From contig OX467082.1 of assembly GCA_950106755.1 (NCBI GenBank), positions 434,001 to 498,000 of the forward strand: a stretch of 64,000 bases of DNA. Reading direction: 5' to 3'. Position 1 is the stretch's first letter; the number at the start of each line of letters is the position of its first letter. The translations under genes were made by a program, and so were the position numbers. Below the pieces are notes generated by a model. That model was not told where the DNA came from and did not search any database. It saw only the letters and a list, made by a program, of their open reading frames with translations. Shown one piece after another: positions 12,991-51,643 of this stretch. The DNA comes from Climacium dendroides (taxonomy: Eukaryota; Streptophyta; Bryopsida; Hypnales; Climaciaceae).

Positions 12991-13581
12991 AGTTCGAATC
13001 GAGCTTAACAGAGTGGATCTCGAGATCCAGAACACTCACTAAAATGATAGTACAATCTGCGTATACAAGCATCTAGAAAGGCTAAATGCTTTGAATATTT
13101 GGAAAAGGGCGCGCAGGTAGTTAAGGCATTAGAAATCCTCTTTGACAAATAAATGGGAACTTAACCACGTCAATGTCAGCTTGATTCGAGCTGACCACTG
13201 GATCTATCGATTCGCACCTATTCAATCTAATCTATAATATTCTATATCACAATCCTTACTCACGGCGACTTGAGATGACCAACCACATTATGATCATAAA
13301 TCCTCATTCAGCTCGAATCGAGCTGATCAACCACACTACATGACTATTTCCTCGTTTAGCTCTTTTCAGAGCAAATATGTGAAATTGATAATTATTTCTC
13401 AGCTGGCAAGATAAGATCTTCAAGAATTGTAGTTTAGTTCGAATCGAACTAATCATGCAATCGGTGAACTCGTTCATATGTATTCTTTGTCAACTCAGTC
13501 AACTCGAATCGAGCTGACTGTGTAGTTTCTGCACTTAGTCAATATGTTCCTTGTGTGTTAATGATAAGCTCGATTCGAACT
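12991..13581. repeat. Cluster of six A-type palindromes upstream of transposase A
   Basis: Copies or near-copies of AGCTCGANTCGAGCT start at 12991, 13178, 13310, 13436, 13501 and 13567. All lie upstream of the transposase start and its splice acceptor, apparently in a 5' leader intron. Mismatches are few and usually confined to one half-site. A separate perfect palindrome, GGATCTCGAGATCC, lies at 13015-13028. Confidence 0.85.
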
Positions 13582-13599
13582 AAATCTCCCCGGATTTTA

Positions 13600-14280
13600 C
13601 GGAATAATTGATTCAGTAATATTGAATATAGTATTCCGTATTTTTCGGCATACATTTCGGAGTTCCTTTAGCACTGCGACAATTCTACTTCATCAACAAC
13701 GAGGTTCCTGAAATGGTAGAATTAAATTGGTAATGAAGGGCAAATTGCTTCATACAATCATCGTTACGAAACTATAGAAATGGCCGACGCGTTCATCAGT
13801 ACACCAAAGTTGCGAAGTCCTGAACTCTATATCAATCAAACCGCGATACGGAAACAGCAAAGCATCAAACGGAAGTCGCATACCACCACATCACATACAT
13901 CTCATTCAAAAAAAATATGAAAGCATCCCCGCATCTGCAAGAAACAAGTGTGGCACTTACAAGTCCTTCATAAATGCTGAGGGGAAAGCACACGCAAGTC
14001 GACTCGGACGACGACAGAGAGAAAGAAAAAAAGAAGATTATTGAATTCCGTGGGAAGGCGTACTCCCCAGTCAATGGCGGGAACTTCTGGGCGGCAAGAG
14101 AACAGCGTGAACTGAAATTTGAAATGCGTCACTGTAGGGCTTCCTAGAATCAGGGAGTACTTTGAAAAAGCACAGCCAAAAATGAGCATCCGAAGCGAAC
14201 TTCCGGGGTACTATTAGATGTACATTCCAATCATACATTCCCGAGAATATGGAACGCATACTTTCCAGGGAAATACTCTA
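13600..14280 (-). promoter_or_regulatory. Probable leader/promoter region of transposase A
   Basis: The minus strand here includes a CT-rich tract (about 14045-14010) typical of plant 5' leaders. The region lies upstream of the palindrome-bearing leader intron. No coding homology. Promoter assignment is by position only. Confidence 0.3.
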
Positions 14281-14289
14281 AAGTTTAAC

Positions 14290-15480
14290 TAGAGGTTGGT
14301 ACTTCTGAATTCATAATTAGTATTTTGTTAGAATTTAAGTGCATTATATCATATAGAATGCAGAAACAAAAATTTGATAAATCTTCAAATTAAAATTTAT
14401 TTTAAAAAAAATTATGAAGAATCGGTTCGTCCTTGCTATGCTATGCATTCATCATTTGAATTTCAGTATAATTTTTATGTATTAGATAGAATAAGCAATA
14501 CTTTTCAAAATAAATATTCAACTAAAAACTATTAAATTTTTCGTAAATTTTTTTTGAAATGAGCAAACTTTGATATATACAACAGAAATTCATTAAACGA
14601 TTTATGTTAAATAATATACATTAATGATACATTAAAATGCATTAGAAATTTGAATCAATTATTACAAACAATGGCAATCCATATTCTAGAATAAAAAAGA
14701 AACACTTCTGAAATGTAAATTTCAAGATTTCCATAAACAACTTAATTGTTGTGAAATCAAAAATAGGCATGAATGTTTTTTAAACAAAATGAATGCACTA
14801 TTAATTCAATATATTCCATATTAATAAGAATATTAAATCTACTAATAACAGGTTCAAAAAACATAACAACTCTAGAGTCCAGATTGAAAAATTCAGTATT
14901 CTATATAAATAAATGCATCTATTTAATAGTAAATCCTACAAATGTAAAATACATTCTCCACAATAATTTTAAGTTTACTTAATTACAACAAATCCAGGTC
15001 ACTCTACACTTCGGAGATGGAACACATATTGATTGTAGAAACATCTACAATTTAGAACTTTTTGGTTCATTTGGCTAATGAAATAGACATGTAAATGAGA
15101 GAAAAAATTGTAATAGAAATTAAAAACGCCCTATTCAATGATAATGCATGGGCACCTCATGAAAAAAATAATGTAATTCAATTTTTCCACGTGGCTCAAG
15201 GTTCATGCTAAACTGACTGAGCCTGCACTTTATCTCACAAAGTCAAAAAAAATATGCAATAAAAGTGCAAATGAGAAAGGAAAAATTCATAGAAGTTGCA
15301 ATCACGCTCTTCTTTAACAATCCATGGACATCTAATCAAAAAAATAATGTAAATGAATATTTCCACGTGCCTCAAAGTTCATACATAAAAGGCCAAGTCT
15401 GTACGAACGTCATTAACGTTATAGTACCTTGTGGTACGAACGTCATAATACCTTGAGATACCAACGTCATGAAATTCAAT
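14290..15480. repeat. AT-rich dispersed repeat in the spacer of element A
   Basis: 14430-14780 is recognisably similar, in the same orientation, to 35330-35700 (shared words such as TGCTATGC, ATTAGATAGAAT and TTACAAA). The rest is AT-rich with no gene. Confidence 0.5.
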
Positions 15481-15489
15481 CAAGGCCAA

Positions 15490-16560
15490 TCTAGATGGTC
15501 CAAAAACTTGTGTACACAAGCTCTAAATTCTTTTCCGATGTGGTTTGGATCAATGCATGTGTTTAAAAAAATACATTCATTTGGTGATCCACATGTATTT
15601 ATAAACCTACACTATTAAAATTGACTATAGTTTGCGGTACCAATGTCATGAAAATCAATCAAGACCAATTTAGATGGGCCTACAGTATTTCCGCACAAGT
15701 TCTAAATATTTTTTGGTTGTGGATTTGGTCAATGCATGTGTGGAAAAAAAAATGGGTGTCTCACATGTATTTTCAAACGTAAAGTCTTCAAATTGATTGT
15801 ATTTTTGAGTCCGAATGTCATGAAAATCAATGAAGGCCAATTTAGATGGGCCCAAAGTCTTTTCCCACAAGTTTTAAATTTTTTTTGGTTGTGGATTTGG
15901 TCAATGCATGTGTAAAAAAAATAAATGGGTGTTCCCCATGTTTTTGGAAACGTAAAGTCTTCAAATTGACTGTATTTTTAGGTCCCAATGTCATGAAAAT
16001 CAATGAAGGCCAATTTAGATGGGCCCAAAGTCTTTTCCCACAAGTTTTAAATTTTTTTTGGTTTTGGATGAGGTCAATGCATGTGTTAAAAAAATAAATG
16101 GATGTCCCACATGTTTTTTCAAACGTAAAGTCTTCAAATTGATTGTATTTTTAGGTCCCAATGTCATGAAAATCATTCAAGGCCAATTTAGATGGGCCTA
16201 CAGTATTTCCGCACAAGTTCTAAATATTTTTTGGTTGTGGATTTGGTCAATGCATGTGTGAAAAAAAATAAATGGATGTCCCACATGTATTTTCAAACGT
16301 AAAGTCTTCAAATTGACTGTATTTTTGAGTCCGAATGTCATGAAAATCAATGAAGGCCAATTTAGATGGGCCCAAAGTCTTTTCCCACAAGTTTTAAATT
16401 TTTTTTGGTTGTGGATTTGGTCAATGCATGTGTGAAAAAAATAAATGGGTGTCCCACATGTATTTTCAAACGTAAAGTCTTCAAATTGACTGTATTTTTA
16501 GGTCCCACTGTCATGAAAATCAATGAAGGCCAATTTAGATGGGCCCAAAGTATTTTCCCA
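15490..16560. repeat. 173-bp tandem satellite in element A
   Basis: The marker TTTAGATGGGCC recurs at 15669, 15841, 16014, 16187, 16361 and 16534, with a diverged first unit near 15490, so about seven units of 172-174 bp. Units are AT-rich and produce repeated spurious ORFs. Its position in the spacer between divergent genes parallels the 177-bp satellite of element B, but the two sequences are unrelated. Confidence 0.9.
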
Positions 16561-16843
16561 CAAGTTCTACATGTTTGTGGAAAAGAATTGATATTAGAGT
16601 GGATTAATATAATGACATTAGAGAGGTGGCATGCTAATTGTTTATTTTGGCTTCAAACTTCATTCACATATTATATGTATACATACAATAAATCAATACA
16701 CTTGTGAAGATTTCAATTCTAAATTTGGAAATGCCAATTATCTTATATCACTCTATTTTTACTTCTGAATTTCAACTCTCTTCATTCACCATAATGTTTT
16801 TGTAATTTCCCAAGATTTAAAGATGTGATATTGTACTAGCTAA

Positions 16844-16974
16844 AGGCCATATTTGTTAAAATGAGACGAAATGGTCATTTTGAGACTTCAACCCTATAAC
16901 AATTATAGTGATTTTTTTCTCCAGTCAAAGATAAAATGAGAGTGCTCATTGTCTCATTTTAATGAATATGGCCT
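16844..16974. mobile_element. 131-bp MITE-like inverted-repeat element
   Basis: Ends AGGCCATATTTGTTAAAATG... and its inverted partner match over 24 bp with two mismatches. The TIR contains the CATTAAAATGAGA motif seen at the ends of elements A, B and C. No clear target duplication. Confidence 0.6.
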
Positions 16975-17575
16975 GCCTATTGTATTCCTATAATATGACA
17001 AATTCTGATAAAATTGGAATTACTTAGTTGGTGCTTGCTTTGGTAAGGAAACATTATAATCCATCATTTATTATTATAATGACATTCTTAAAATTAAAAT
17101 CTTCACAAGTGTATTGATTTATTGGGTATAAATCTTTTTATAAGTTTCCATTTACTATTACTTTATTTTTTCATCAAAATGCAAAAGAAAATGTATAATC
17201 CAAAAAGCGTATGACATGCTCAAAAAGGTTATTGGTCAAAAAAGTGAATACAATGAAAAATGATAACTAATCGAAGTTTAGAATGCAAAAGAAAGGTCCA
17301 GGTAACACTACACTAATGATGATAAGTAGTGTTATCCATACTAATTATTTTAGAAATGCTATAAGTTTTTACTCTTCATAAATATTTTTACGAAAACCAT
17401 AACTCCTAGTATCATTCTAAGTGGGAAAACTCTACATCCATAGTTGGTAAAAATATTCATCAAGAATGAAAACTTATGACTTTTCTAAATAAATTAATAT
17501 AGGTAATAATATTTATCATCATTAGAGTAATGACAACATACTAGTATTAATAGTCATTAATGTAGTCGTTACAAA
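16975..17575. other. AT-rich spacer, nothing recognised
   Basis: No gene-like ORF. A loose inverted similarity exists around 17330-17520 (TAAGTAGTGTTATCCATACTAATTATTT versus its complement), suggesting a decayed foldback. Confidence 0.35.
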
Positions 17576-17579
17576 GGGA

Positions 17580-19500
17580 CCTGGTTTGGACCCGGTTCGA
17601 ACACCAGAAGGGGGCGGATAAGAAGAGGTCGGGTAAGAGGGGGTCGAGTATCAGCGGGAGGTCGGTCACCAGGCAACAGGGTGGGTTAGTATACCAGAAG
17701 GGGGCGGGTATTATCAGAAGCCGGCTTTGGGGTTAGGGTTTGGCGCCCTCCTTTGCATTCCGTTTTTTTTCTCATTTCCTGTTGCTGCGCCGTGTGATCG
17801 CTGTGTGATCGTGTTCGTGTTGCTGTGCCGTGTGATTGCCGTGTGATTGTGTGAGTGCATTGCATTTTTTGGGGAGTGCGCGGAAATTGGAAGTGAGTGC
17901 ATTGTATTAGCTTGAGTTGTTTCTATCTTCCTCTGAGTGCGCTTTTGGAGCACTCGACAAGGCAGACAAAAACCTGTAGTTGCTAGGGTTTTCAGAACGT
18001 GCTCCATTGGAATTTGAAGGCGACCCTAAGACTTCTACTCTGTCTGATAAACAGATATTTAGAATTGGTTTAGTTGATTTGTAACCCATTGTGCTAACTT
18101 CATCTCTGTTTTCCTTTGGTTTGTAGCAAAAATATTACCGTGGTTGCCTTCTCAGTTTCCCATTGATCCCGAATATTGTTCTAGAACTGTAAATTGAATC
18201 AATGCCCCCTGTATCCTTCTTGTGAGTGCCACTACGCTTCTGGAGCATGCGGTAAGGCAAGCTCGAGTGCGCTTCTGGAGTACGCGGCTGTGGCAAACAA
18301 CAACCTGCAACTCTTGTTCCGGATTTAGAGCGTGCTCAAGTGACATTTCAGGGTTTTGAATATCGAATTTGGTGGCTGTAGCGCTGGAACGGAAACGGGA
18401 ACTCGAAGCTTCCAAGAGGTGACAATTTCCTTGTAAGTTACTATCGATCTTGTGCATTTTGTTGTGGAGACGTGAGTCCTGCTTCCTGCGATATGTCAAT
18501 TTTGGTTTTCAACTGGTATGTCAATTGCGATATTTGGTTTTCAGCTGGTATGTTAATTGGTATTCAGTGACAATTTTTTGGTATGTCAGCGGGTATGTCA
18601 ACTGCAATATGGAGTTTGCTTCAGTGACAATTCGTTTGGTGCAGTTTGGTTCTTAGTGGGATGTAAGTGGATTTGGCAATTGTAGTGTGCAATTTTTCAC
18701 AGGAATCTTTAGGGAGGGAAATTTAGACCCAGAAGGTGCAAAGTTAATGGTTTTGTGTGGTACCTGAATTAGGTCACTTGGTTTATTGTCTTGTATGTAT
18801 TGGATTGAGTTTTCATGTTTTTGAATTTTTGTGTTTTATTATTTAGTATGAATGGCTTTAGGTTCGTAGTGTTCTTATTCCATATGCAATTGACGAAGTA
18901 TTTGAATTGCATATGATGTCACCTGCAGCAGCCTAAACTTGTTTGCACATTTGACTATGCAGGTGCAGTTAATGTGGTTCAATATTGCGGATTTGGGACA
19001 ATTTGGAGGGACTTTGCTTCTGTTAATTTAATTCCGTGGTAGTAGTTTTGCATTAAGTGGTTCTTCTTCATCGACTTATTTCTCAGTGGTATGATGCCTA
19101 TTTCATTTGTTTTGCATCTGGTAGAGGTTGAATCATTTTTTTATCATGGGTTTAAAGAGGTTAGCAAGGTCTGTGTTACGGTCTGAGTAGGGGTTTAGTA
19201 GGGTTCGCTCACGAGTTCTTAGGGTCTGTTGATAACATTCTGGTCATGGTCAACTATAGGGTTAGCTTTAGCGACAGTCAAATGCGAATTCAGCTCGAAC
19301 AGCACTGAATGTCGAAAATGCACTCCCGTTAATCAGATGGGTTCGAGCTGAATATGCAACAAGTAGAACCACCCAACCAACTCGACTGGAGCAAAATCCT
19401 GATTTTCGGACCTTAGCAACAGCAAGAAAGAAGAAAAGTACAATAAATGCAATCATAACCAAAAGGAACGACTCTCCAGACAATGATAAATCCCACTGTA
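17580..19500 (+). promoter_or_regulatory. Probable promoter/leader region of cargo A
   Basis: Composition becomes GC-richer at 17580. A segment near 17900-18010 (GAGTGCGCTTTTGGAGCAC...) is partly repeated near 18225-18350, suggesting a duplicated leader exon. Half-site matches to the A palindrome appear near 19290-19390. No coding homology. Assignment is by position upstream of the cargo leader acceptor at 20305. Confidence 0.3.
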
Positions 19501-19503
19501 CTC

Positions 19504-20264
19504 AACTCGAATCGAGCTGATTTTAAACAGGACGGTCCATCAATCTAGAGTAATGTTATTGTCAAACCGACTAAAACAACAACAATGTAACGAATAACCA
19601 AAGATACATTTAACAGCAAAACTAAATTAGCTCGAATCGAGCTAAAACAACTCAATTTCAATAAAAATATGTCAAAACCACAAAAGCGTCCACAAAGTCA
19701 AGAAGATTAACTTTAATATACAAACTAAGAACATGACATTGACAAGTCCACAAAGCCTAAAAGTCCCCGTCAAAAAAAATAAAAAAACTAAAACGTTAAA
19801 AAATCGATATCACACAAACTTTAAAACGTGCAACGACCAGAACAAACCAGACAAAACCAGACAATCAACTCGAATTGAGCTCAATACACAGTAAAACTTG
19901 ACACATCATAATGCCTCTCACAACAACAGAAAACCAACCACACAAAAATGACAACAGAAGCGCAATGATACCAGAAACCGCCACCTAAGAGTTCGATTCG
20001 AGCTCTCCCAGTATTAATATAGCACAACACAAGTAGATAATGAAACAAATCTAAATCGGACACTCGATGGTGAAAAAAACATCGAACCAGGAAGCTCGAC
20101 TCGAGCTCTTATAAGCATTAGTGACATAAACATACTTGCGAAAATGAGAGGATTAACAAAAGAATGACAGATAGACAACATGTAGCAAAACGAATAGACA
20201 TTGGCTCCCATGTAGAAGGAAATGCAGAGATAATTAAACTGAATCTATCAGCTCGAATCGAGCT
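19504..20264. repeat. Cluster of six A-type palindromes upstream of cargo A
   Basis: Copies of AGCTCGANTCGAGCT or one-to-two-mismatch variants start at 19504, 19629, 19867, 19990, 20093 and 20250. They precede the splice acceptor directly before the cargo ATG at 20306, so they appear to lie in a leader intron. Confidence 0.87.
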
Positions 20265-21758
20265 AAATGAATAAGCTAACACGTTGAACACAGTACAACG
20301 TGCAGATGGATAGCCAAGTTGAGAAGCTGAAACAATACTTCACAAGGACAGAAGTCCTGAAGGTTAGTGAAGATGACGGGGACGACTTCCTCGACGACGG
20401 GGAGTACTGGGAATTCACTTACCCCGAGAGGGTTGAGTGTTGGAGCCTTACCATGATCCCCTGTACAGAGCTCATTGCCTTCTGCGTGAAATACAAGGGG
20501 ATGAGCTGCTTCCTCCCCATGTCCTACGAAGAGCAAGTAAAGGACATGGTGGAAGACATTCCGCCAACGATTAAAATACATTGTCAAATGGCTGTCTTGG
20601 GTGTCCCCGCCAAAGATCAATACAACTTCACCATCCACTTCAACTCCCAGAAAATACCATTCCGCGTGACAAATCTCATTCGTAGTCTTGAAACTACGTT
20701 GTTTCAGGACCACATGAAGGAGCTCGAGGAGAAGGTGAACGAGAGGGTCTTCTTGAAAGAAAACGGAGATCCGATATCAGGCCACAAACTATGTAGGAAG
20801 CTCAGGCAAATGTTCCAAGACTTTACTTGTCTGAAAACAAAAATAACCATAGAGCGGGAAAGCAAAACTGCCCGCACCGTGTCCTTGAATGTGGAGAGCC
20901 AGGGAGGGAGTCAGATCTCCACTGACAAGCAACCTCTTGTGGATACACAGAGGAGGGAGAAACGAAACAAAAAGCCTGTTGATCCCGGGAGACAACAAAG
21001 GCAAACCAGTAACCTTGCCTCATCCTCCCAACAGAAGTCCATGGAGAAATCGGGAGATCAGTCCGGCGTTGACGACATTGCCTGCGACTTCAGTGACATT
21101 CTCGAGTCCTTGCAGGTGAACAGGAAGCCGGACTACGAAGAGTCCAACAAGGCCTATAAGAGGTTCTGGACTGCTTGCACGGACGTGTTCTTGTACAAGA
21201 TGGAGAAGAAGACCCTTCCCATCGACAAACTTATTCAGGCACCGGCCACGCTGAACATCCGAAGCAAGGAGGATCGCATCGTCGAAGATATGATGTACTG
21301 GCTCGTAAATATGCCAGACCACAGCAATCGGCAGATGCTCTGCGTGATGCTCGTGAACAAGCCCACAAGAGACAGTGATGATTCGTGGGAAGAAATCAAG
21401 GACGGCGATTTCTACATTATAAACGAGCAGCACAGTGTGTGGGCAAGCAAACTAATGCAGGACCCCAAGTACAATGTCGCGCCCAAGATCGTCAACGACT
21501 ACCGATCATGGAGTTGCTACATTGTGTAGACCGAGGACACTGAAATTCTGCGATCCATTTCAACGTATTACAACCACGTGAACCACTTTCAAGCAATCCA
21601 GCCATCGTGGGCCACGAACATTCTAGGGGCACGGAAGGTCTGGGAGGAGATGGGGAAACCGCGGAACCCCAAGGATGACACCTCCTCTGGATCTATTACA
21701 AGCTCCCGGCGGTCCAAGGAGGCGCACATCAATAAGATGAAATACGCGGTAAGTATTC

Positions 21759-21773
21759 ACCTCGACTCGAGCT
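21759..21773. repeat. A-type palindrome in cargo intron 1
   Basis: ACCTCGACTCGAGCT, one mismatch to the consensus, begins 10 nt into intron 1 (donor at 21749). A more degenerate site follows at 21821-21835. Element B has its palindrome at the equivalent place (41766-41780). Confidence 0.85.
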
Positions 21774-23277
21774 CAAATTGCATTGGGATATGTCCCTCCC
21801 TCGAAACCCCGTAGTAGTTCAGCTCCAGTCAAGCTCATTCATTAACTGTCAGACAATGTGACAATTTGTTGCAGGAATTCCTGAAGGCCATGCAGATGCG
21901 GTTCTCCATGATCGACGTCGCCAAGAGTCAGACCAAGGCTAAAGGAAAAGACGCAAAAAATAGTCTGGTGATAACCAACGAGGTAAAAATTATCACAGCA
22001 CCAGACGAAGTCTTCAACCTCTGGAGTGAGGTCATCTCTAGTGCGGCACATGGCGAGCTCGTTGACCCAGACACACTCAAGAAGTTCAACGCGAAGCCTT
22101 TATGGAAAACGGAGAACGGAATGCTCAATAAGGAGTATTTCAAATTCTTCGGGAATCTCACGTACGAGGACCTGAAGAAGCTCGCCAACCATATTTTGAA
22201 TAAGTCTGGCGACAAAAGAAAGCAGCCTCATCCGAAAGTGACGATCAAGCAGTCATCGTCAGTTTTGGAAAGTTGCTACTCATCAAGTGCTTGGATTGAG
22301 AGGTGCAAACGAAAACAGTTCGTGAAGAAAGAGTTGAACAAAATTGACCCGTCACTTGGATTCCTGAACGCGGACAATGAGGTTGTGCCGGAGAAATGGA
22401 AGGAGTTTAAGTCCAAACATTTTGTGACCTCGGCCATAATGAATGTTCTCCTGGAAAGGCCTGGGAAGGAGTTCTTTTCAGAGATTAAGCAATTGAAGTC
22501 TAAGAATAAGTCCACATAAGAAATTTCTAAGCACGCTGCTGAGTTCTTCAAGGTCTTCCTAAGAGAGAGAAAGAATTTTGTCCCACCGTCAGCAGTGGCG
22601 TACTATGCGCCATACAACATCAAGGACGACAGACACACGGCATGGCCAACCGGTGTGTGGACTGTGGACACCCCGGCTGATCTGAAAGTCGGGGTCATTG
22701 ACTTCCGTTTGATTCTGGGAGTGTTGTCCAAGCAGAAGGGCACTATTGCGATTCCCTACTTCAACACCGTCATGTTGTCGTTGATGGGGAAGCGCAAGCC
22801 CCTGTTGGAGGAGGTCCCAATCTGGCTTTTCATCTGTGCGAATGTAATGGAGCAGATGCAAGTAACGGCATTTGTGCAGAACCACGAGGAGTTGCACAAG
22901 TTTAGGTGCGAGTATGTGGACTACATGCCCGGGGACTACGAGCGTCTGGGTGACATGTCATCGGCAAAGGCAAAGTCCCATGCCAAGGTCCTGCTCATGT
23001 TCTTAATCAAACTCGAGTACTGCACGGACGTAAAAATCCCGAATGCATTTTGGGCTCCGGACACACCAATCTTCAACACGCCACGCGGGTACAATGAACT
23101 GGAATTCCGCCTATACAACGTAGAGCTTCGTATGGAATTCTACTTGTGGGTGGTGAAGTCCTTCTGCAAGGCTGGTGATAGTGTGTTCTCGGTCTTTGCC
23201 GGAGGGAAGTTCACATGTACTGCGGTGGTATGCCCTCTTCCCTCACATTCCTTCAAACTCACTATGAGTGTCACATC

Positions 23278-23324
23278 AGTTCGAATCGAGCTTAATTGTC
23301 TGTTGATTCAGCTCCACTCGAGCT
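23278..23324. repeat. Two A-type palindromes in cargo intron 2
   Basis: AGTTCGAATCGAGCT at 23278 and AGCTCCACTCGAGCT at 23310, both inside the 143-bp intron 23228-23370. The matching intron of element B carries three B-type sites. Confidence 0.85.
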
Positions 23325-24329
23325 GATATGATAGTTTATTGATGATAGATGCTCGTTTCTGTCACTACAGATGAGTTCCGTGAATGTGTTCGTAGTTGGA
23401 GTGAAAGAGGACTCCCTCTTCTGGAACGACATTGTCACCACGGCCATGTTGCTTGACAGGGCCGACTTTCTGGAGTTGGGCTACAGAGTGGAGGAGCCTA
23501 AGTCAAGTAAGCAGCGGGAGTCTCATTCGACACCTTCGCCCGCGAAGACAATGCGGAGGGCCCCGTGGGATTCTCCATCCACTGGTCGCCAGATCAAGAG
23601 ACCTATCGAGGAGCCTGAAGTGATCTCAAGCTCCGATGACGACGCAGAGGATTGCCAGCAAGATGAAATGCCCGATCCTCCTTCATTGCCTGTTCGTGCA
23701 ACACCAACAGAGCATCGTGGCTTCTCTGCGTCAACTGGAGACGCGATTGAGACGCAATTGTCGTCAACTCCGTCGTCCACCCATCCGCGGAAGAGAAGGA
23801 AGACTTCACTCGTGGATGACATCCTTGAGAGGAGGTTTGCTGAGATCGAGGAGAAGCGGCTCCAAGATCGGGCGGAGAACATCTTGTAGCAGCAGCAGAT
23901 GAACAAGAGGCTGGATAGCATGCAGACATTCATGCTGCAAGATTCCAACGAAGCTAACGACAAGTTAGACGCCTTGATTTTGTGGATGAAGGGTGGGAGG
24001 CCCATGGCCGAGGTCCAGCCTGCGGCACCTCAATTGAGGCTTGAAAACCAGCCATTAGCGTCGTCTTTGGCCCCACCTTCAGGTCAGGTAGGCTCGTCAA
24101 AGTTCGCGGTGCCTGCACCACCCTCGCATCCACCGCCTAGGACACCACCTCCTCCACCATCATCCGCGGTTGTGCCACCGGTGCTTGTGGAGGCGCAAAT
24201 GTGCACTTGGTCCTCCAGAGGTAGGCAGTGGTGATGTGGTGGAGACCCCCGACCAGCCAACCACGTCTCCTAGCCAAGAGTCCGGCTCAGGTGCACCTCA
24301 ATGATCATTCGGTGTTCTTGTACAATTTT

Positions 24330-24344
24330 AGCTCGACTCGATCT
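24330..24344. repeat. A-type palindrome after the cargo stop codon
   Basis: AGCTCGACTCGATCT starts 26 nt after the inferred TGA at 24302-24304. Element B has its site 30 nt after the corresponding stop. Confidence 0.8.
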
Positions 24345-24562
24345 GGTTTTTGACGTGGGCTGTATGTAGTTTTAGAGTTATCTCATAGACAACTCAACAA
24401 TTTTGACATAGTTGAACTTCTAGTGGACCGAACCATGGAGTTCAAAATTTTCAGACATTGTGTATGTACATCAAAACATTTTTATGTAAAGCGGTAATAC
24501 CCGGATTCCTTACAACACTTCCTTTGTACACTCCTGACTTGCAAGCGCTGTCAATGTTGTAG

Positions 24563-30760: not shown

Positions 30761-30769
30761 ATTGCCTGT

Positions 30770-33697: not shown

Positions 33698-33699
33698 TT

Positions 33700-40280: not shown

Positions 40281-41765
40281 AAACAATTGACAGAAACCTC
40301 TTACCATTGCTGCGCACGTCAACTTCCCTCCAGCGAAGCCCGAGTATATTGACATCCCAGACTTGCAGAACTTCTTGACGATCCACAGATAGAACTCCAT
40401 TCGCAATTCGGTGGGATGGATTCGGTATTCCAGCTCGTTGTATGCACGCGGCTTGACATACCGTGCCATCTCTGGACATTCAAATTCATCTGGAATGGCC
40501 ACCTTGTTGACATTGGTTGGGTTCTGCAGAAAGATCAGCTGCACTTTCTTCGGCGTTTTCGCAGCTGAGCAATCACCGAGTCGATCGTTCTTGCTGGGAC
40601 AGTACAAGGCGTATGAAACCTCGAAGGTTTTCAAGACCACATTGGATTCAATCCAATGGAGGACTTGAGATTGTTCCTTTTCATCCCCACAAATAAAGAG
40701 CCACGCTCGGACATCTTCAAGGGCAGGTTTCTTTGTCTTGGCCATCGAGGTGAGCACTTCAATGAAGTACGGATGGTCGATTGTGGAGCTCGTCTTCTTC
40801 TGAATCCCGGGCATTGTCCTGAAGTCGAGAACCCCAAGCGCCATATTTTTGGCGATTTGCTCAGTCATCGCATTCGCTGTCCACTCCTTGTGTATATTGC
40901 CCGCCACCACATAGCCTCGGTAGTGGCCACTTGCGGTTGGGACCTGGAAATTAGACTTATGTTGCAGAAATCTCTTCAAGAAATCCTGCGCATCTTTGGA
41001 CAACTCTGTGATCTCTTTGTTGAGGGAAGACTTATTCTTGGCCTTCCCGAAGTATGCTTCGCCTGGCTTGTCAAGAAGGACGTCCATGGTAGCGCTGGAT
41101 AACTGATGGTCCTTCTTGAAAGTCTTCTAGTTATCATGGATGATGTCGCCTTCCGCATTCAGAAACCCGAGAGCAGGCTTGATTCCATGAAGCTCTTTGA
41201 TCACCAGATTCTTCCGCTTACGGCGCTCAACCCAGTCTTTTGTGCTCCAGCAGTCGTCAAGCACGTTCTTGATGCTCTTTACTGTCACCTTCGGGTACGA
41301 GAACCTACGCTTTTCACCCGTCTCGTTGAGCAAATGTTCAGCGAGTCTTTTCAATTCTGCGTAGCTCAAGTTCCCCAGGTGTTTGAAGAACTCCCGATTC
41401 AGCACACAGCTCTCGGGATTCCAATCGTCCCTCGCATTGAACATGGCCCCCGTATCAGGATTGACGAGCTCTCCATGCGCGGCAGCGGTGATGACTTCAC
41501 TCTAGAGTTTGTACACATCATCGGGTGCCGTGATGAGCCAGAGTTCGTTCGTCAGCTTCAGTTTTTCCTCTCTGGCCTTGGTTTTTAAGATTTTCAAGCT
41601 CTTGACAACGTCAATCATAGAAAATCTGATTGTCATGGCCCTCTCAAATACTTGACACACAGTTAGACAAATTTAATTAGAAACGACGACGTAGCTCATC
41701 AAAGATCAATCATGTAGCATGCATTCTGTACAGGGCTGGAATTCTGTTAGCCGACGAGGCGGTTT

Positions 41766-41780
41766 AGCGCGAATCGCGCT
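41766..41780. repeat. Perfect B-type palindrome in cargo intron 1
   Basis: AGCGCGAATCGCGCT, extended by TTT/AAA, lies 11 nt inside the intron from the donor at 41791. The A-type site in element A is 10 nt from its donor. Confidence 0.92.
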
Positions 41781-43378
41781 AAAGTGCTGACCTGAAATCG
41801 CTCACGCTTCTTCTTGTTCTCTACAGTTTGCCGTACTTGAGACGCGGTTCCAACAGACTTGGTGGGCTTGGGATTTTCGGGCCTACCCATATCCTCCCAC
41901 ACTTGACAAGCCCCGAGGATGTTGCTCGCCCAAGATGGCTGCACAGCGATGAAGTGGTTTGTGCGGTTGTAGTAGGCAGAAATGCATCTGAGCTTTTCCA
42001 CGTTCTCCGACCACACAATGAAGCAATTCTACTTCTGGAAGTACTTGCGCTCGATTTTGTCGATGTTGTTGGAGTCATTAAACATGAACTTGCTTGCCTC
42101 CACACTATATTGCCCGTTTATTATGTAGAAATTGTCGGTTGCAATTTCTTCCCACGTCTCCGGCTTCTTAGTGCAGCCCACGGGCATGACGCAGAGCGTT
42201 TGTTTCGTGCTCTTGTCAGGAATGTTGAGGAGGTAGTTGACCATGTCCTCAACAATGTTATCCTGCTTCGATCGGATGTTATAGGTCGCAGGAGCCTCCA
42301 CGAGCTGAGAGATGTCAATCTCTCGCTTGTCACCAACACCAAAGACGTAGGCGTCTTCACAGCTGGTCCAAAATTGCTTGTAGACTTGACTGACGTGCGT
42401 ATAGTCAGGGCTTCTCAGCGTCGCTCGGGAGTGAGGCAAGTTTGCCATCTCCTCGGCGTAACATCCTTCGGGAACTTCGGAGACTGGAGGCTCGGTTGCT
42501 GTGGCTGTCTCTTTCTGAGGAGGATCAGCCACTTTTTTCCCTTTTCGCTGTTGAGGCTTCGAAGGCTGTGCTTGAGTTTTTCTCTGACCTCGACTTGTCT
42601 CTAATTCCTGCTTCACGATCACCTTAGAGGTCTGGCTGACGCCTTGTGACCGATCGGGGCTTGCTATACTCTTGTTGCATGGAGAGCTTCCCCTTCAACG
42701 TATTGAAGTCGTTGAATAGCTGGCGGATTTTTGTGCACAGCCTCTTCCAGGTTAGGGGAGTGCCGTTTGCATTCTTCTACTCGTTGTTGTCAAGCTTCTT
42801 CTCTAACTCTATGATCTCGTCGGCGTATGGAGTAGGTTGGAGGCTTTCCAGGAAGTGGCTGAGGTTGAATGGGATGAGGACCGAGTTGATGCATTTGGCG
42901 AAGTGGTATTGCCTGCTCGCTCCCGGCACAACGGACATGCATTTCACTTTGATCATGGGATGCGCGTCCACTTCGACATCTTTGATCATTTGTTGATAGG
43001 AGAGTTGGAGGGCACATATTGCGTTTTGAAACTTGTAGCTGAAGCAGATCATGTTTGTCATTGGTATCATGCATATGCTCCAACACTCTACTTCTTCAAG
43101 CTCTTTGAACTCCCAGTACTCGCCTTCGACTACACTCTCGTCCGCATTGGGATCATCATCCGCGCACTGTACTTCACATCTTTTGAAGTACATTTCAAGG
43201 GCTTCAACTTGGTCCTCCATTCTGCCAGAACAATGTTACGGTGTTTCATATTAGAACACTGATATGTATTAATTGGGATCTCTAGCGCAGATTTCTATTC
43301 ATATTTGTATTTTGACTCTTTTGCCTAGCTCACGCTGGATCAAATCATGATGACTCTCGTATTGGTAGGAAATACTTT

Positions 43379-43908
43379 AGCGCGACTCGTGCTGAAGTTG
43401 AATTTGTCTAGATTTGATTTGGTATGAATCACTGGTAGGAACTGATTAGCGCGAGTCGCACTAAAGTGGAGGTCTTACACTATCATTATGTTGGAATATA
43501 CTTTAGTGCGACTCGCGCTAAGGATGAATTGGTCAAAGGAGATGTCAAACAAGCATCGTTAGGAGTGATTTAGCACGAGTCACGCTTACTCAGAGAGCAT
43601 GCGCTAGATCGAAGGACTGATACTTTCTAGTCGGATGATTATACTTTAGCGCAACTCGCGCTAATGTTGAGCTGATTGTTCTAGTTATCTACGTTTTCAA
43701 TTTTTTGTTCTGGGCGGGAGTATTTTAGGATCAGGATGCTGTTTAAGCATTATTTAGCGCGACTCGCGCTAAAATGGATATGTATTTTATGGCTATGTCT
43801 TGTGGGTATCGGGTGCTATGTTATTATTGAATGGGATGTATAGGACACTTGAGTGGCAGGATTAGCTTAACGAATTTCTAGATATACCATTTTAGCGCGA
43901 GCCGCGCT
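43379..43908. repeat. Cluster of seven B-type palindromes upstream of cargo B
   Basis: Sites start at 43379, 43448, 43505, 43572, 43648, 43756 (perfect) and 43894. All are upstream of the cargo ATG (43220) and its acceptor (CTGGCAG, ending at 43222), so probably in a leader intron. Confidence 0.9.
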
Positions 43909-43919
43909 AAAATGGCTAA

Positions 43920-45350
43920 TTAACGTTTTATTTAGTCATGACTTTATTTTTAGGGTTTCAGGTTACAAAGAATAGGGTTCAGGGTTTTAGAACAGGAGCA
44001 GGAACAGGAACAGCAAACAGCAACAGGAACAGGAACAGCAAACAATAAGAGCAACAACAACAACGACCAACAACAAACACATGTATTTAACCTAAAACCC
44101 TAAACCACAAACATCATTTGCTTCATTGTTACCGGATCATGACTAATTTTGGGTTTGCTTCAACGGAAGATGACTAAGCAAGCAATAAGCAACCAAGCAA
44201 GTCATGGTTGAAACATTCAAGCAAGCATGCAAGCAAGTCAAGGAAGAAGCATTCAAGCAAGCAAGGAAGCAAGAAAATTAGAAATTTATTGACCACGTAC
44301 CTAAAAAATAGCAACAGGTACCTTGCAGACAGTAGGTGCAGCTCAAAGATCACACCTCGCAACTCAAGTGGCTCTGTCCACACGAGAGTGCCCTCATTGA
44401 AATTCCAATTATACGAACAAAGAACAGAATAAAATCACACCACAAAATCCTTGAAATTCAATCACACGGAAACAAAACCTTAATACAGCATAGCATCTAA
44501 TATGAATCTCATCAAGCAAGGAACCGACAACTTGTGAAATTAGCATTGTCCCAAGCTCTCTGGCAATTTCTAACAGCTTGAATTTAGGTTAAAAACTCGT
44601 GAAAAAAGATTGGCAAAGTACCTGTTGAAACGAGGAATTTTGATTGTGTGCCTCCCACTTCGCAACTCAAGTGTCTCGCAGACAGCAGGTGTAGCTCAAG
44701 TGTAGCTCGCACCAGCTCGCACCAACCACCAAGCACCTTGATGCAAGAAGCAAGCAAGTCAGATAGCAGGTGTAGCTCAAGTACAGCTCACACCAGCTCG
44801 CACCAACCACCAAGCACCTTGATGCAAGCAGCAAGCAAGTCAGACAGCAAAGCACCTCGCAGCAATCCGCACCTCGCAACTCGGACCAAACAATCCGCAC
44901 CTCGCACCTCGAAGCAAACAATCCGCACCTCGCACCTTGCACCTACGAGATTGCGTTGAATTCGTAGCAATCCACACCTCGCAGCAATCCGCACCTCAGA
45001 CCAAACAATCCGCACCTCAGACCAAACAATCCGCACCTCGCACAGCAGGTGCAACCCTAAACGTCGAACCGAGCACCAAGCACGAAGTACGAAGTACCTC
45101 GCACCAAGCAGCAAGCAATCCGCACCTCGCACCAAGCAATCCGCACCTCAGACCAAACAATCCGCACCTAGCACCTCGCAATTTCAAATTTCAAGCATTC
45201 GTTACAGCTCTCTCGCCGTGCTCCTCCGCTGCAGCCCAGGCGGCCAACAAAACTCTCCACAATGAACTCAATTGTGGCCTCAACGAAGAAACTAAAAAAG
45301 AGCCAAACCAACAAAACTAAAAAAACAAGCAACAAATGCGCTGATCCTCC
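43920..45350 (-). promoter_or_regulatory. Probable leader/promoter region of cargo B, low-complexity
   Basis: 44000-44060 is (ACAGGA/ACAGCA)n. 44160-44280 is rich in AAGCAAGC. 44640-45190 is a degenerate array of CGCACCTCGCA, CAATCCGCACCTC and CAGCTCGCACCA units that yields spurious ORFs on both strands. No gene. Confidence 0.4.
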
Positions 45351-46640
45351 CCCCGCGCGGCGAAAGGAGGGTGACGACCGACCGGGGCTACACCGAGCCT
45401 CCAACCAGGGTCGGTATTAGGTTCGGGCTTAGGGGCGGGTAAAAATTTGACTGCCGAGGCCACAGGGTCGAGAACCAAGTCCATAGGGTCGGGAACCAAG
45501 TCCACAGGGTCGGCAACAGGGGACGCAGGGTTGGTCATTGGTGCTACAGGCTTCTTTTCCATTTTAGAAGAAGTGCATATTGGCAATATAAATATGATAT
45601 TGGTTTTCCAAATTGCAACATTCATCCATTTAAGGGAGCCAACCCATTTTGACCACTTAAGCCATTTGGACTATTTGCACGGCTGATTTTTTCAAAACTT
45701 CCATTTCTACAAGTTTCGAAAGAGGCATTACAATGTAGGCATAATTTTTGAGATGTTTTTTTGCAACATAAAATTATTGAGAATTTTAGTGGAAAATGGA
45801 CTTGCTTCTATTCTAATGATATAGCCCATTATCTTTCCAACAATTTTGATTGCAATATTGAGACTCTCCTAAGCCAATTATATAGTGCGACAACTGCATA
45901 GAAAGTTGTGCCATATGTAATTGCTGCAAATTTTTTGTGCACAGTCAAAAAGGAAATGGTCTATACTACCATAATGGGATGTCAGTTATAAATGGGTTGC
46001 CTCTTGTATTGGATGTATGGTATGGTTTTCATCCACAATTGGGCAATTTCATCTAATATATTTTTATATTTCAAAGTTGTCTAGTAATTTCATCCACTTT
46101 TTCTAGCATTTTCTATAATCTTTTTTAGGGCAATCCTTCCTTTTCATAAATCATAACAATCTTGCCTACTTGGAAGTTGAACTTTGCATGAATAAAAAAA
46201 AAATGGGAATAGAATGGGCCCTCAATCCCCTTGAATGGTCCAAATCCTTCAAATGTCTTGCAATAATTAAAAAAGAATGCTCAAATAAATTTCAAGCAAT
46301 TTGAAATTCGTGCTACACATTGGATTCCACATTAATTCTCAATGCTAGCCCATTTAGGAGTTAATTTACATGTGAAAAGGAAGGATTGCCAAGGATACGG
46401 CCGTTGTACCCTAACGGTTCAAAATTAAAAAGGTCATGGAATTTTGTAAGTGATTGCTCAAATTTTGATCAAGCAAGTTGTAAATAGTGGTACAAGCGAC
46501 ATCGTGCGTTCATTTTCAATCTTGCCCACTTAGAAATTGAACTTTGCATGAATAAAAAAAAATGGGAATAGAATGGGCCCTCCCCTTGAATGGTCCATTC
46601 TATTCAAATCATGGCCTTATGGGATGAATTCATTAAATGG
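45351..46640. other. Spacer of element B with a direct repeat
   Basis: Roughly 46180-46250 and 46530-46590 share TTGAACTTTGCATGAATAAA and AATGGGAATAGAATGGGCCC. 45450-45540 has (CAGGGTCGGNAACCAAGTC)n-type repeats. No gene supported. Confidence 0.45.
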
Positions 46641-46649
46641 TAAATAAAA

Positions 46650-47440
46650 TATATATTAGTACAAGTTATGAATTAGATGAACTTTAAGATTTTATAATAA
46701 AAAAACACTACTAGTGCTTCTTTTATACATTTTTGGAAGCAAAAATAATATGTAATTCAAGAACTCATGTGCTGTAGTATAGAAATACTAAAGTCCAGAA
46801 ACCATGATGTATATGAAAATAATCAAACGCAAAAGACATGTACAAGTTGCATACTAATTGAACATTTAGATTTCATGATAAAACATTATTCATGGTCATT
46901 TCATTCATTTTAACACGCAAAATAATTCTAATTGAATAAGTCATGTGCTGTAGTTTACAAATAATGAAGCCCAAAAGCCATGAGATATATGAAAATAATT
47001 AAAACCAAAATACATGTACAAGTTGAATACCAGATGAACACTTAGATTTCATGATAAAACTATATTAAAGGTTCTTTTATGCATTTTGACATGCAAAAGA
47101 ACTTCTAATTGAATAAATCATGTGCTGTAGTTTACAAATAATGAAGCCCAAAAGCCATGACATATATGAAAATAATTAAAACCAAAATACATGTACAAGT
47201 TGAATACCAGATGAACACTTAGATTTCATGATAAAACTATATTAAAGGTTCTTTTATGCATTTTGACATGCAAAAGAACTTCTAATTGAATAAATCATGT
47301 GCTGTAGTTTACAAATAATGAAGCCCAAAAGCCATGACATATATGAAAATAATTAAAACCAAAATACATGTACAAGTTGCATACTAAATGAGCAATTTAG
47401 ATTTCATAATAAAACGAAACTAATGTTCCTTCTAGGCACT
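46650..47440. repeat. 177-bp tandem satellite in element B
   Basis: The marker CATGTGCTGTAGT recurs at 46766, 46942, 47119 and 47296 (period 176-177 bp). The last units are nearly identical. It occupies the spacer between the divergent genes like the 173-bp satellite of element A, without sequence similarity. Confidence 0.9.
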
Positions 47441-50430
47441 TGGAGACATGCCAAAACAAATTAATTGCAATAAATGGTACTGAGAGACTTCGAATTTTTA
47501 TCCATATGAAATTGTAGTTCCATTTCGAATAATTAAAAGGTATGAAAGAAAAATATATTACAATCTACAAATTTATATTTATTGGGTTGAATTCAAAGAA
47601 TCTTGTTACAAATCTTCAACCCAAATTTAAAATTAGGAACATTCCAATTTATTTTATTGATTAAAAAATTGTTGAGAAGAATTTATTACATCGGTCCACC
47701 GATCTACGATGCCAACACTAGCTCTAAGCGTTATTACAAGTATATGGTATATGAGTCTGGAAAGCTATAAAAAAAAGTTTTGCACGCAAGCACATAAATA
47801 TGGTGCAAGTTGTAAACGTTTTGAATTCTCAAATTCCATGGATTGAGCGTTCAGACGTCCAACTCATTTTTGAAGAAGTAAATAAAACCTTAAAATTTTA
47901 ATGTACTACAGATGCCTTTCAAATTTTGGCTACTTTCTATGGATAACTAAGAAAATAACTTGCATGATTGGTGGCACATTTCAAATAATTATAGTGCTAG
48001 TGCCTTCATGATTGAATGGCACTTCCGAGTATGAATTACCATAATGTAAGCTTATAATTCATAATTGAGAGTGTGATGTGAATGCATGGTGGACTCCACC
48101 ATGATGGGTTCTCCAACTTCATCATTTCAATAATTACTGTTCTTTACTTCAAGAGATGACCTCACCTTTTGCCACTTCCAAAGTTCATTGTATGTGTCAA
48201 TTATCCAAATTTTCAGTTAAAAATGATTGTTTAGTCATGCGTGTATGTTTAAAAAAGTTGAAAAGTCCATCATATAGGATCTTCATACACCATAATTATT
48301 ATTTAGTGCAATAGGAAAGTCCTCTGCAAAGGGTGTTCATGATTCCATTGAACATGCAAAAAAATATACAATTACATAATTTTTAACATGAGTACCGAAT
48401 GCATCTTTTTGTTTATGTGCTTATCTTTCTACATTCTCATGTGGAATATAAAAATTCACGTAGTACATTGTAAAGAAACAAAAAATTATTTTATTTATTG
48501 TATGTGTACTTTGTTTTCAATATAATGCCCAGCACTAATTTGAATATAATGCCCACAACTAATTTGAACTTCCTTAATGAAAATTTTAAGCATTCATGTT
48601 TTAAATTTCATGACATTTAAAATTTTGGACATCTTCAGTCCAGCGGCCATGAAACTTCTTTTGTCACGTGTACATGATTTATTAAATGGGCAAGCATTAA
48701 AAATTTGCTTGGAATCCAATGCATAACTTTAGTAACAGTAATTTTAACTTGCTTCAAAGTTATTTGATTATTGACGTAACAAATTGCAAGACATTTTCAA
48801 ATTTGGGTTTTGAAAGGGCCGGGCCCATTTCATTCCCGATTTTTTTTTATTCATGTAAAGTTGAATTTCTATGTGGGCACAAATTGGACATTATTCTAGA
48901 ATATAATGCCCAGTAGTCACTAATTTTAACTTCCTTAATGAAAATGTGAGCATTCAGGTTAAAAATTTCATAAGAATGTCAATTCTGTATATAAACACCC
49001 AATCCTTAAATTTAATTCTATGATTTCCAACAAGATTCCTAAACTCCAATAAATATAAATTCAAAATTTGTACTGTAAAATGTTATTTACTTATCTTCCT
49101 CAATTTTGTATGTGAATGCTCATTTTCAACATCCTTAATTTCATCTTTGTGAATGATAAAACCGTGAATCTGGATTCTTTGCAGTAAATTCATGCTATTT
49201 TTATAGAAGTAGGTCTTGTACCATTATAGATTTCCTAAACCTTTTTATGATTGTTTCCAACTTTTTGAGCACAATTGCTTGATTTAGAAGTTTCAATTTG
49301 AATTTGATAACTTTGTATGCAAACAAGTTTACTATGGTTGCCTTTTGATTTCATAGGTAAGTTTAACATTTGTTAAAATGAATCTAAAAATTATTTTTTA
49401 AGGACACGATTGAAGTAGTAGTTGATTTGTTTTTAATGATTGAAGTAGAAGTTGATGAAAATGAGGCATACAATTAAATTTCATAAAGAATCATAAGAAA
49501 AGAACATTTGTTAGTATGAGTTGTATTTTCATAAATACAAAACTTGAAAGTATTTGGCATATATTACAGTCAAAGAGTACAAAGGAAGTAGAAATTTTAA
49601 ATTATATAACATTTATCATTATGTAACATTTATAATTTGTGCCAGAACATGGGTCTACTATTCCTTGAACAAACACATTTTGTCTATTATTTCACAATAA
49701 TGCTATTGTTATTTTAAAAAAATACATATTTTTATGGATTTACCCCTCCAAAAACAACTTAGAACGTTATGAATAAGTTTGGTCTTCAATGTGACATTGA
49801 ATTGTATTCGTCTACACGTATGCCTTTAAAGCTCCCTAACCAAATATTTAAATTTTTTGGCATCTATTCAATTTGGTACGTCAAAAGAATTAGCTTAGTG
49901 CCGTGGATTTCACATGACATACCCTCAAGCTTGAAACCTGAAACCCTAAAAACCCTAATATCCTAAAACCTCAATGTGAACTTCGTGAAATGTAAAGTCT
50001 ATTTAAGTATCTATTTATTAAGTATCTAAACTTTTAGAAGCGGAAACCTGAAATGCCGTGAGTGTAAAGTAGAATTGGAGTTTAGTTCCATGGACTCCAT
50101 GTAGAATACTATTTTGAGGCGGTCAATATTTTTTGAATTAAAAACGAGAAGGAATTTCCCCAATTGCAGTCACTGTAGAAGGAGAAGAATGTACCAACTT
50201 TAGAAACAGTTGTATGAGGGCATCTTCCTTAGCAAATAAAGTTGTCAGTCCAAATGACCCTTGACCATTTTTATCGAAGTGCGGAAAAGGCTAAAGGAAT
50301 ACAATAAGGCTACAAATAATAACTCCACTTGCCGTTCGTGACAGTCTCCCATTCGCAAGAAGACACGTCACCGTATGAAAGTCAACGAGCAATAAAAACT
50401 TATTTCTTAAAAGGCTGCTGAATCCGTAAC
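47441..50430. other. AT-rich spacer of element B, nothing recognised
   Basis: About 3 kb of AT-rich DNA without gene-like ORFs. Short partial duplicates such as ATAATGCCCAGCACTAATTT / ATAATGCCCACAACTAATTT near 48522-48570 and again at 48900. Confidence 0.45.
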
Positions 50431-50439
50431 ATCCGTGAG

Positions 50440-51100
50440 GAATTTGATTCATTCCTCTTTTAGGGTGCACCTGTAAGATTCCACCTGCAAAGGCATGAGG
50501 AATCCTTGAGCATCAGAAATTAGAAACATGACGTTCAAATTGTTGGATTGGGTTGGCGCTTGTTTGTTCGCGCCAACAATCTGGGTTGCATCACCGAATC
50601 GCATGCACGTCCTTCCTCTTTCACCATTCTCTTCCATCGAATTGTCGCATGTTTGTTGTTCCCGCTCTTTGTGTGCACCTCGTTCACTTGCAGTGTTCTC
50701 GTCCGTGTCATGTTCTGGAGTCCCAATTCGTGAACGCTTGCGTCTGTTTGGTTGTTATCCGCTGCTGTCGTAGCTCAAGGACTTCAACGTCAAACCTTGC
50801 CGGTAACGTACTTCTCCCTTCTACATCTGTTTTGCATACTTCCATTCTGAACGTGAACGCTTGTCAGGATACATTCCGTCAAATGCTTCAGAAACACACT
50901 TGATTGCGTAGGTCTTCATTTTTTCTAGATCGCATTTCACATTGTAGCAATTGTATTTGAATTTCATTTGCAACCATTGTGCTTGAATATCATTTCGCAA
51001 GGTCTCTCCATCGGGCACGTCTAATGTTGTTCGTTACCGGTTCCGTGAATTCCGGAACTACTAAAAATAGTAGTTTTGAGTTCAGCTTAGAAGTCTGTAT
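50440..51100 (+). promoter_or_regulatory. Probable leader/promoter region of transposase B
   Basis: GC-richer, CT-rich plus strand (CCTCTTTCACCATTCTCTTCC near 50610) upstream of the palindrome cluster and the transposase. Candidate splice donors such as GCCG/GTAACG near 50802. Short overlapping ORFs are not convincing. Confidence 0.3.
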
Positions 51101-51160
51101 GGATTCCGATAAATTCGAGATGTTCAGATGAATCATCACCGAAGTTATGACTAGCAGTTT

Positions 51161-51643
51161 AGTGCGACTCGCGCTAAATTACGTTTCTGAAATCTCATAC
51201 ATAGTTTAGCGCGTGCCACGGTAATGTATATTTCTGTTTTCTAATTCTAGAACACGGGATATGAAGTATAGAATAGTCGCACTGCAGTTCAGCGCGACTC
51301 GCGCTAAAGTGGGTTTCTGTCTGATAAGCCTAAGCGAGGTAATTGATTTACGGAGTAACTATATTTTAGCGCGAGTCGCGCTAAAGTATGTTTGGGAAGA
51401 GTCCGTGAATTTCAGCGCGAGTCGCGCTAAGATATTCTGTTTGATAATCCTGAACGGGTGATCGATATTCATTTTAGCGCAAGTCGCGCTAAAGTTTGCT
51501 CCTCTCTGGTCAATCTGAATTAGAAGATAGGCCTGGTCCACGGGATTCATGTACATGATAACTTAACTGCATTTTAACTTATGCCTAGACAGTACAGATT
51601 ACAAACAATTACATGGATGAACAACTTTAGCGCGAGTCGCGCT
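51161..51643. repeat. Cluster of B-type palindromes upstream of transposase B
   Basis: Sites start at 51161, 51208 (degenerate), 51291, 51368, 51414, 51476 and 51629. 51291, 51368, 51414 and 51629 have the perfect 15-bp core, several with TTT/AAA flanks. All precede the acceptor TTACAG before the transposase ATG at 51822. Confidence 0.92.

Follow-up and report, generated by a model that had tools for sequence, protein, structure and literature searches.

The window, by which we mean the whole 64,000-nucleotide stretch of Climacium dendroides DNA that was analysed, contains two related giant elements, A and B, lying in opposite orientation (Table 1). The transposase gene runs leftward and the cargo gene rightward in A, and the reverse holds in B, the two genes of each element being divergently transcribed with a long AT-rich spacer in between. 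A cargo opposite in strand to the transposase is also seen in L023/L024 and in an element of C16. Both copies are decayed: the A transposase gene is split, being interrupted between 7926 and 10515 by about 2.6 kb of other sequence, and both cargo genes contain stops, that of B with a frameshift in addition. The exons of the A cargo were modeled by comparison with B and with the Physcomitrium gene predictions P0121-P0125.

Table 1. Elements, genes and palindromic sites in the window (positions are those of the window)
Feature	Position	Strand	Basis or detail
Element A	6661..28298	.	ATATTCA...GRGAGT terminal sequences at both ends; fragments of the transposase align with B
Element A transposase (DUF7869), broken: 7435-7926, 10515-11828, 11800-12906	7435..12906	-	Pfam PF25273, E 4.4e-43
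6 A-type palindromes, transposase leader	12991..13581	.	at 12991, 13178, 13310, 13436, 13501, 13567
6 A-type palindromes, cargo leader	19504..20264	.	at 19504, 19629, 19867, 19990, 20093, 20250
Element A cargo, exons ~20306-21748, 21875-23227, 23371-24304, decayed	20306..24304	+	comparison with B
2 A-type palindromes, cargo intron 1	21759..21835	.	
2 A-type palindromes, cargo intron 2	23278..23324	.	
A-type palindrome directly after cargo stop	24330..24344	.	
NIF/FCP1-like phosphatase exon of A	25004..25765	+	PF03031, E 6.8e-15
2 A-type palindromes, phosphatase-DYGQY exon interval	25818..25934	.	
DYGQY exon of A	26126..26692	+	matches B at 75% of nucleotides across 116 bases
Element B	36409..55117	.	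terminal sequences of A's kind
DYGQY exon of B	36759..37391	-	
2 B-type palindromes, phosphatase-DYGQY interval	37524..37618	.	altered centre AGCGCGAAGCGCGCT; at 37524 and 37604
NIF phosphatase exon of B	37703..38443	-	PF03031, E 4.7e-21
B-type palindrome after cargo stop	38971..38985	.	
Element B cargo, exons ~43219-41790, 41667-40311, 40074-39016	39016..43219	-	
3 B-type palindromes, cargo intron 2	40129..40280	.	
B-type palindrome, cargo intron 1	41766..41780	.	
7 B-type palindromes, cargo leader	43379..43908	.	
6 B-type palindromes, transposase leader	51161..51643	.	and a degraded one near 51203
Element B transposase (DUF7869)	51822..54658	+	PF25273, E 5.1e-41; one frameshift near 52280-52445

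The two transposases, putatively DDE-like, are 72.8% identical. Where the 120 relatives listed (of 174) are assigned to an organism, it is Physcomitrium patens or Ceratodon purpureus, and a Foldseek search gave no clear match. An intact DUF7869 frame, 52.7% identical to the A transposase, lies on contig L001, which was deposited as a cyanobacterium and is probably moss.

The cargo protein is predicted to combine a ParB-like domain with a DNA-methyltransferase fold of the N6A/N4C (beta) class, the fold model being that of a Physcomitrium homologue (mean pLDDT 71.6), through which the assignment is extended to the cargo of element A. Foldseek with this model returned nothing at an E-value of 0.001 or better (best 0.016); KorB, named a transcriptional repressor, is among the matches. 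Scans of the cargo against Pfam and NCBIfam had NIF, in the phosphatase part, as their sole match above cut-off, a PHROGs scan gave weak matches only, and a sequence search of the PDB gave one match at E 0.76. Physcomitrium is the organism named among the cargo relatives, and in two of its gene predictions (P0122 and P0123) a phosphatase of the NIF/FCP1 type is fused to the cargo. In canonical ParB proteins GxxR is the CTP-binding motif, and canonical methyltransferases carry DPPY and a motif I Asp. On the cargo alignment, where we placed these motifs ourselves, the presumed GxxR position reads GQHS, with S for the arginine in 39 of 39 sequences, S replaces D in the presumed motif I of 38 of 39, and what is probably motif IV reads DFRxLPG, not DPPY. 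Because these motifs are altered, neither CTP use nor methylation by the cargo can be assumed.

Palindromic sites in the window and in the genome

At up to two mismatches, the A consensus AGCTCGANTCGAGCT matches 28 places in the window, 19 of them in element A and nine corresponding to B sites at two mismatches (mean 0.13 and largest value 2 in 100 shuffles), and the B consensus AGCGCGANTCGCGCT matches 24, of which 20 lie in element B and four are exact A sites (shuffle mean 0.03, largest value 1). An earlier note, made from the letters of this DNA, had claimed about 18 A sites and 20 B sites with a symmetric difference of one base per half-site, and both claims are borne out. Exact copies number four for A and seven for B, and the two discriminating positions are T and A in 19/19 A sites and, in B, G and C in 18/20 sites each, the remainder being A or T. 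The motif also reaches further outwards, roughly as TYAGCTCGANTCGAGCTRA in A and TTTAGCGCGANTCGCGCTAAA in B. Where sites deviate from the consensus, the change is C>T or G>A in 14 of 19 cases in A and in 11 of 15 in B, the pattern expected of decaying methylated cytosines; the difference between A and B sites is a transversion in each half, and it is therefore not decay.

As the earlier note had also claimed, the sites are confined to noncoding DNA: none of the 19 A sites or 20 B sites overlaps our list of exons, which make up fractions of 0.37 and 0.43 of the respective elements. All 39 lie beside genes, in introns or just downstream, none falls in the long AT-rich spacers and, in both elements, none comes within 1 kb of either end. 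The further idea that they occupy corresponding places is correct for compartments: the transposase leaders hold six sites each (plus the degraded one in B, where seven had been claimed), the cargo leaders six in A and seven in B, intron 2 two and three, the DNA after the cargo stop one each, and the phosphatase-DYGQY interval two each. Intron 1 holds two in A and one in B. The correspondence does not extend to alignable positions, the transposase leaders of A and B giving no match by blastn.

A genome-wide scan, which the earlier note had proposed, covered the 412.6 Mb moss assembly (123 contigs) and yielded 540 exact copies of AGCTCGANTCGAGCT and 426 of AGCGCGANTCGCGCT; both patterns read backwards, as a control, gave 0 matches, and a mixed pattern with one half from each type was found in 42 places. 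The matches listed include 50 distinct A-type sites of the 540, of which four lie in the window and 35 in 20 fetched regions, and the 39 thus examined are all in or adjoining elements of this kind. In nineteen of the 20 regions tblastn detects coding sequence of cargo or transposase, and the remaining one (L006) adjoins L007, which has a transposase. Random background was rejected as the source of the exact single A-type sites in the fetched regions, since they belong to further cargo families of such elements. In viral contigs, the peptide patterns used revealed no relatives of transposase or cargo, and the 21-bp dyad had no match.

Site type, cargo and transposase across element families

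Other cargo families carry dyads of their own, AGGTCGANTCGACCT in family C, TTTAGGNCGGNCCGNCCTAAA in family D, whose sites are loose at position 4, and TTCAGGTN7ACCTGAA in family E, the last with 12 loose matches in L019 (shuffled mean 0.78) and four in L017, although C-family loci, too, contain 7-10 matches to the loose pattern. In addition to their main motif, families C, D and E hold an A-type (CTA) site that does not fit it, mostly between the methyltransferase and phosphatase exons and, in the D-like L018 and L022, in the cargo leader. L001, read only around its transposase, has three CTA-like sites in the transposase leader, one of them exact, and one within one mismatch in the 3' flank. 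The palindromes are hence not private to the window elements, as had been supposed: CTA recurs in L001 and as single extra sites in three cargo families, and the B type (CGA) is common to families B and F. Given the CTA-like sites in the distant L001, and on the three lineages compared, CTA may be the older form.

To the two transposase leaders of the window we added 37 leaders of 1 kb each, hand-chosen from the match lists (18 of 48 P0001-like copies, six of eight additional copies of family B and 13 of 48 of family D), and assigned each site to the best-fitting of six patterns, allowing one mismatch. Each of these 39 leaders, from four families, carries one site type, with four sites ambiguous: CTA accounts for 30/30 sites in family A, CGA for 68 in family F (plus one tie) and 38 in family B (plus three ties), and GNG for 77/77 in family D. 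No exact off-type or hybrid site was seen in them. Free mixing of types within one element, which the earlier note had named as telling against its proposal, is not seen in these 39 leaders. B and D copies were told apart by transposase identity (93-100 versus 80-82%). A and F leaders were told apart by the leader itself, so that what is established for these is the absence of mixed leaders. An independent feature is in agreement: the transposase match starts at residue 9 in 5/5 CTA copies, whereas in 13/13 CGA copies it starts at residue 1 or 2.

Family F separates the two genes. Its transposase (L034) is 92.5% identical to that of family A (L035) and 73.5% to that of B, and in the transposase tree A clusters with F and P0001 at 100/100, B lying outside. 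Its cargo, read from one copy that has stops (L032), shows an identity to B of 60% in exon 1 and 61% in exon 2, as against 45% and 48% to A, and the cargo tree groups B with F at 100/100 and A outside. Both trees had been proposed in advance, and F joins A in one and B in the other. The F sites are of the B type, even in the leader that precedes its A-like transposase; a few hybrids occur at the far end of the cargo, close to the phosphatase exon. A second F cargo, sought by distance, was not found. A hybrid marker site accompanies the F cargo. Of the 48 P0001-like transposases, 22 have such a site on their leader side, the median distance being 13.6 kb (5/13 CGA copies and 0/5 CTA copies), and 3/48 have one on the other side within 25 kb, all in an array on C3. 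Family D provides a second mismatch, with a transposase 79.5% identical to that of B, a cargo 44-48% identical and a different motif. On C1, by eye among the matches listed, all eight D-type transposases have an exact CTA site, the marker of the D cargo, 12.7-63 kb away on the divergent side, and the D cargo itself was read beside six of those eight sites.

Since F pairs an A-like transposase with a B-like cargo and B-type sites, and D is a second mismatch, it is the cargo, not the transposase, with which the site motif goes in the families compared. On the simplest reading, the sites would have the cargo protein as their partner, and not the transposase. The idea of an element-encoded DNA-binding protein diverging with its sites gains support from the leaders and from family F, which point to the cargo as that protein, and from the ParB-like domain predicted for the cargo. 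Binding by the transposase, for which the palindromes would be enhancers or internal sites resembling the ends, would account for their being as dense beside transposase leaders as beside cargo genes and for their placement in the transposase leader and 3' flank of L001. We nevertheless hold it improbable, because transposases as much as 92.5% identical, in A and F, go with different sites, as do the related ones of B and D, and because the sites of the window elements avoid the outermost kilobase and occur in cargo introns. Exploitation of a host transcription factor seems extremely unlikely: proximity to promoters and the CTA sites of L001 would suit it, but families within one genome differ in half-sites, which follow their cargo, and the 39 exact CTA sites examined, among 50 listed of 540, are tied to these elements.

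The earlier note had pictured the sites as changed in concert at matching positions, and point mutation of sites at homologous positions between A and F was rejected, the leaders of these two families giving no alignment despite the 92.5% identity of their transposases. F leaders contain internal duplications of about 125 bp that carry sites. From the unalignable leaders and these duplications, site sets appear to have been replaced or re-expanded together with the cargo, not point-mutated in place. Such duplications could also mean that the motifs have no function and hitchhike, being alike within a family by descent alone; leader copies compared within families are 92-98.5% identical, and no selection on sites after insertion was seen among F copies, in which sites and flanks vary equally (2.59% each in 12 of the 13 F leaders compared). 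Leaders that cannot be aligned nevertheless keep the dyad architecture, the gene-proximal placement and symmetric half-site changes, CGA is common to B and F with no alignable DNA beyond 27-37 bp around the motif, and exons and spacers of the window are free of sites, all of which makes an absence of function very improbable.

A candidate function for the cargo protein

The elements are giant two-gene moss DNA transposons, and we consider it probable that their cargo protein binds the palindromes as a dimer, thereby recognises its own element and keeps the genes of that element expressed. These palindromes of 15-21 bp are restricted, in the window elements, to promoters, introns and 3' flanks. 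The output would most likely be a countering of host silencing, by analogy with what VANC does for VANDAL elements. Each cargo lineage would have its own half-sites, so that cargo and site set would travel as a matched pair when modules are exchanged. Weighing against this proposal are the moderate strength of the fold matches, the altered cargo motifs, the single and decayed F cargo, the off-motif CTA sites of families C, D and E (in a cargo leader in L018 and L022), the hybrid sites of F and the equal variation of sites and flanks in F leaders.

Two other outputs of cargo binding have to be weighed. Autorepression or copy-number control, in which the cargo would hold down both genes, is suggested by dense operator-like palindromes upstream of two divergent genes and by the repressor KorB among the fold matches; sites are also found in introns and 3' flanks, however, and VANC motifs lie in introns as well as upstream regions, and we judge this output unlikely, if still worth some weight. 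Methylation of the palindromes by the cargo (N6A or N4C), as a mark of self DNA, would agree with the predicted methyltransferase fold and with the proposal that an algal ParB-methyltransferase accessory protein modifies its own transposon (PMC12477816). The presumed catalytic motifs are non-canonical, with S for D in motif I (38/39) and DFRxLPG as motif IV, and such methylation seems quite unlikely.

More tentatively, and with slightly less than even confidence, we suggest that, in this eukaryotic transposon lineage, a prokaryotic-type ParB/methyltransferase fusion with altered catalytic residues serves as a sequence-specific factor of self-recognition, that protein and dyad half-site change together, that cargo and sites are exchanged as a module independently of the transposase, and that families are thereby kept from acting on, or being counteracted through, each other. 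The co-change of protein and dyad half-site between moss families may be likened to the ParB/parS incompatibility groups of plasmids.

Relation to known systems

VANDAL elements are Mutator-like. In Arabidopsis, a protein encoded by the element (VANC) and subfamily-specific noncoding motifs, located upstream and in introns, are described as co-evolving, and loss of methylation has been shown (PMC5735166). The same account has VANC21 binding the nine-base YAGTATTAY, arrayed in one orientation, and motif variants spreading by tandem repeats and repeat turnover (PMC5735166), much as the moss site sets appear to do. The moss elements likewise have family-specific motifs dispersed in noncoding DNA, both in the window and in the 39 leaders of four families. 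They differ in that the motif is a dyad of 15-21 bp, the protein ParB/methyltransferase-like and the transposase of the DUF7869 type; neither a Mutator-like transposase nor a VANC protein was found in them. The parallel drawn by the earlier note is accordingly sound as logic and does not amount to membership, given the DUF7869 transposase and a cargo with no Pfam match above cut-off other than NIF.

If the proposed reading is true, land plants have in this system another, unrelated instance of the VANC principle, that of a transposon protein co-diverging with dispersed noncoding motifs, and a protein-DNA code becomes testable with matched pairs. The present analysis contributes candidate target sites, a number of paired specificities within a single genome, and a natural swap that uncouples the cargo from the transposase. 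Our literature search found no report of this moss system among the matches listed (bioRxiv preprints being outside its scope), and, what is new, as far as the searches show, is the moss DUF7869 lineage, its candidate target palindromes, the coexistence of several cargo-motif pairs within a single genome, and the swap.

A similar domain composition has been described in algae, where Sola1-1_Ec32 of Ectocarpus, a giant DNA transposon, encodes an accessory protein with ParB-like and N4C/N6A methyltransferase domains, and where the authors suggest that such proteins may bind and modify their own transposon (PMC12477816). The passages of that paper devoted to them name no target sites. The moss system resembles these, by domain description, in the ParB-like domain, the N6A/N4C methyltransferase domain and the strand of the gene, opposite to the transposase (PMC12477816). 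It differs in its DUF7869 transposase, its NIF phosphatase part, its co-diverging candidate target sites and its altered motifs, neither the canonical DPPY nor, in 38 of 39 sequences, the motif I Asp being present where we placed them. A bacterial precedent for anti-silencing by the ParB family is described for VirB (PMC10653881). In comparison with VirB and with ParB, Noc and KorB, the moss cargo is eukaryotic, is joined to a methyltransferase fold and has GQHS in place of the GxxR motif of the ParB CTPase clamp.

Palindromes of the further cargo families

The CTA palindrome, the type of site carried by element A, is retained at loci of cargo families C, D and E despite their different main motif, and it lies either between the methyltransferase and phosphatase exons (twice in L020) or in the cargo leader. 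The dyad of cargo family E, TTCAGGTN7ACCTGAA, lacks the CG core (L017, L019) and is located in introns and, in L019, also in the leader. Hybrid palindromes, composed of one half of the CTA type and one half of the CGA type of element B, are found at 42 places in the genome, and in family F, which combines an A-like transposase with a B-like cargo, they occur repeatedly and directly 3' of the phosphatase exon.

Positions of palindromic sites and premature stops
Feature	Location	Context
Hybrid palindromes	L032:9854-9936	family F locus
CTA site between methyltransferase and phosphatase exons	L011, L012, L013, L014, L016, L017, L019, L020, L021	
CTA site in cargo leader	L018, L022	
TAG premature stops opposite Trp	window 21527, 41127, 41502, 42029	

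Transposase and cargo frames

In the window, four premature stops in the A and B cargos are TAG, each standing where the other copy encodes Trp. The distance between transposase and cargo can exceed 30 kb in family D (G000:C1:7735888-7738257; D cargo in L012), and neither a palindrome site nor a transposase match occurs in L033, which covers 8 kb upstream from the cargo leader of L012. An intact DUF7869 frame is also present on a contig that probably comes from a moss but lies within a deposited cyanobacterial genome bin (L001, CADCWO010000071.1).

Other stretches of the window

A third, cargo-side end fragment (56769-61914) is split by an insert at 56890-60598, the left part of which shares 92% identity with 5471-6043. 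The stretches 33783-35209 and 62292-63855 form another related pair, 65-69% alike, with an uncharacterised frame nearby at 33062-33697. Finally, a short element at 16848-16970 has inverted ends, CTCATTTTAATGAATATG, that resemble the sequence at the termini of the giant elements, and is perhaps a non-autonomous derivative.
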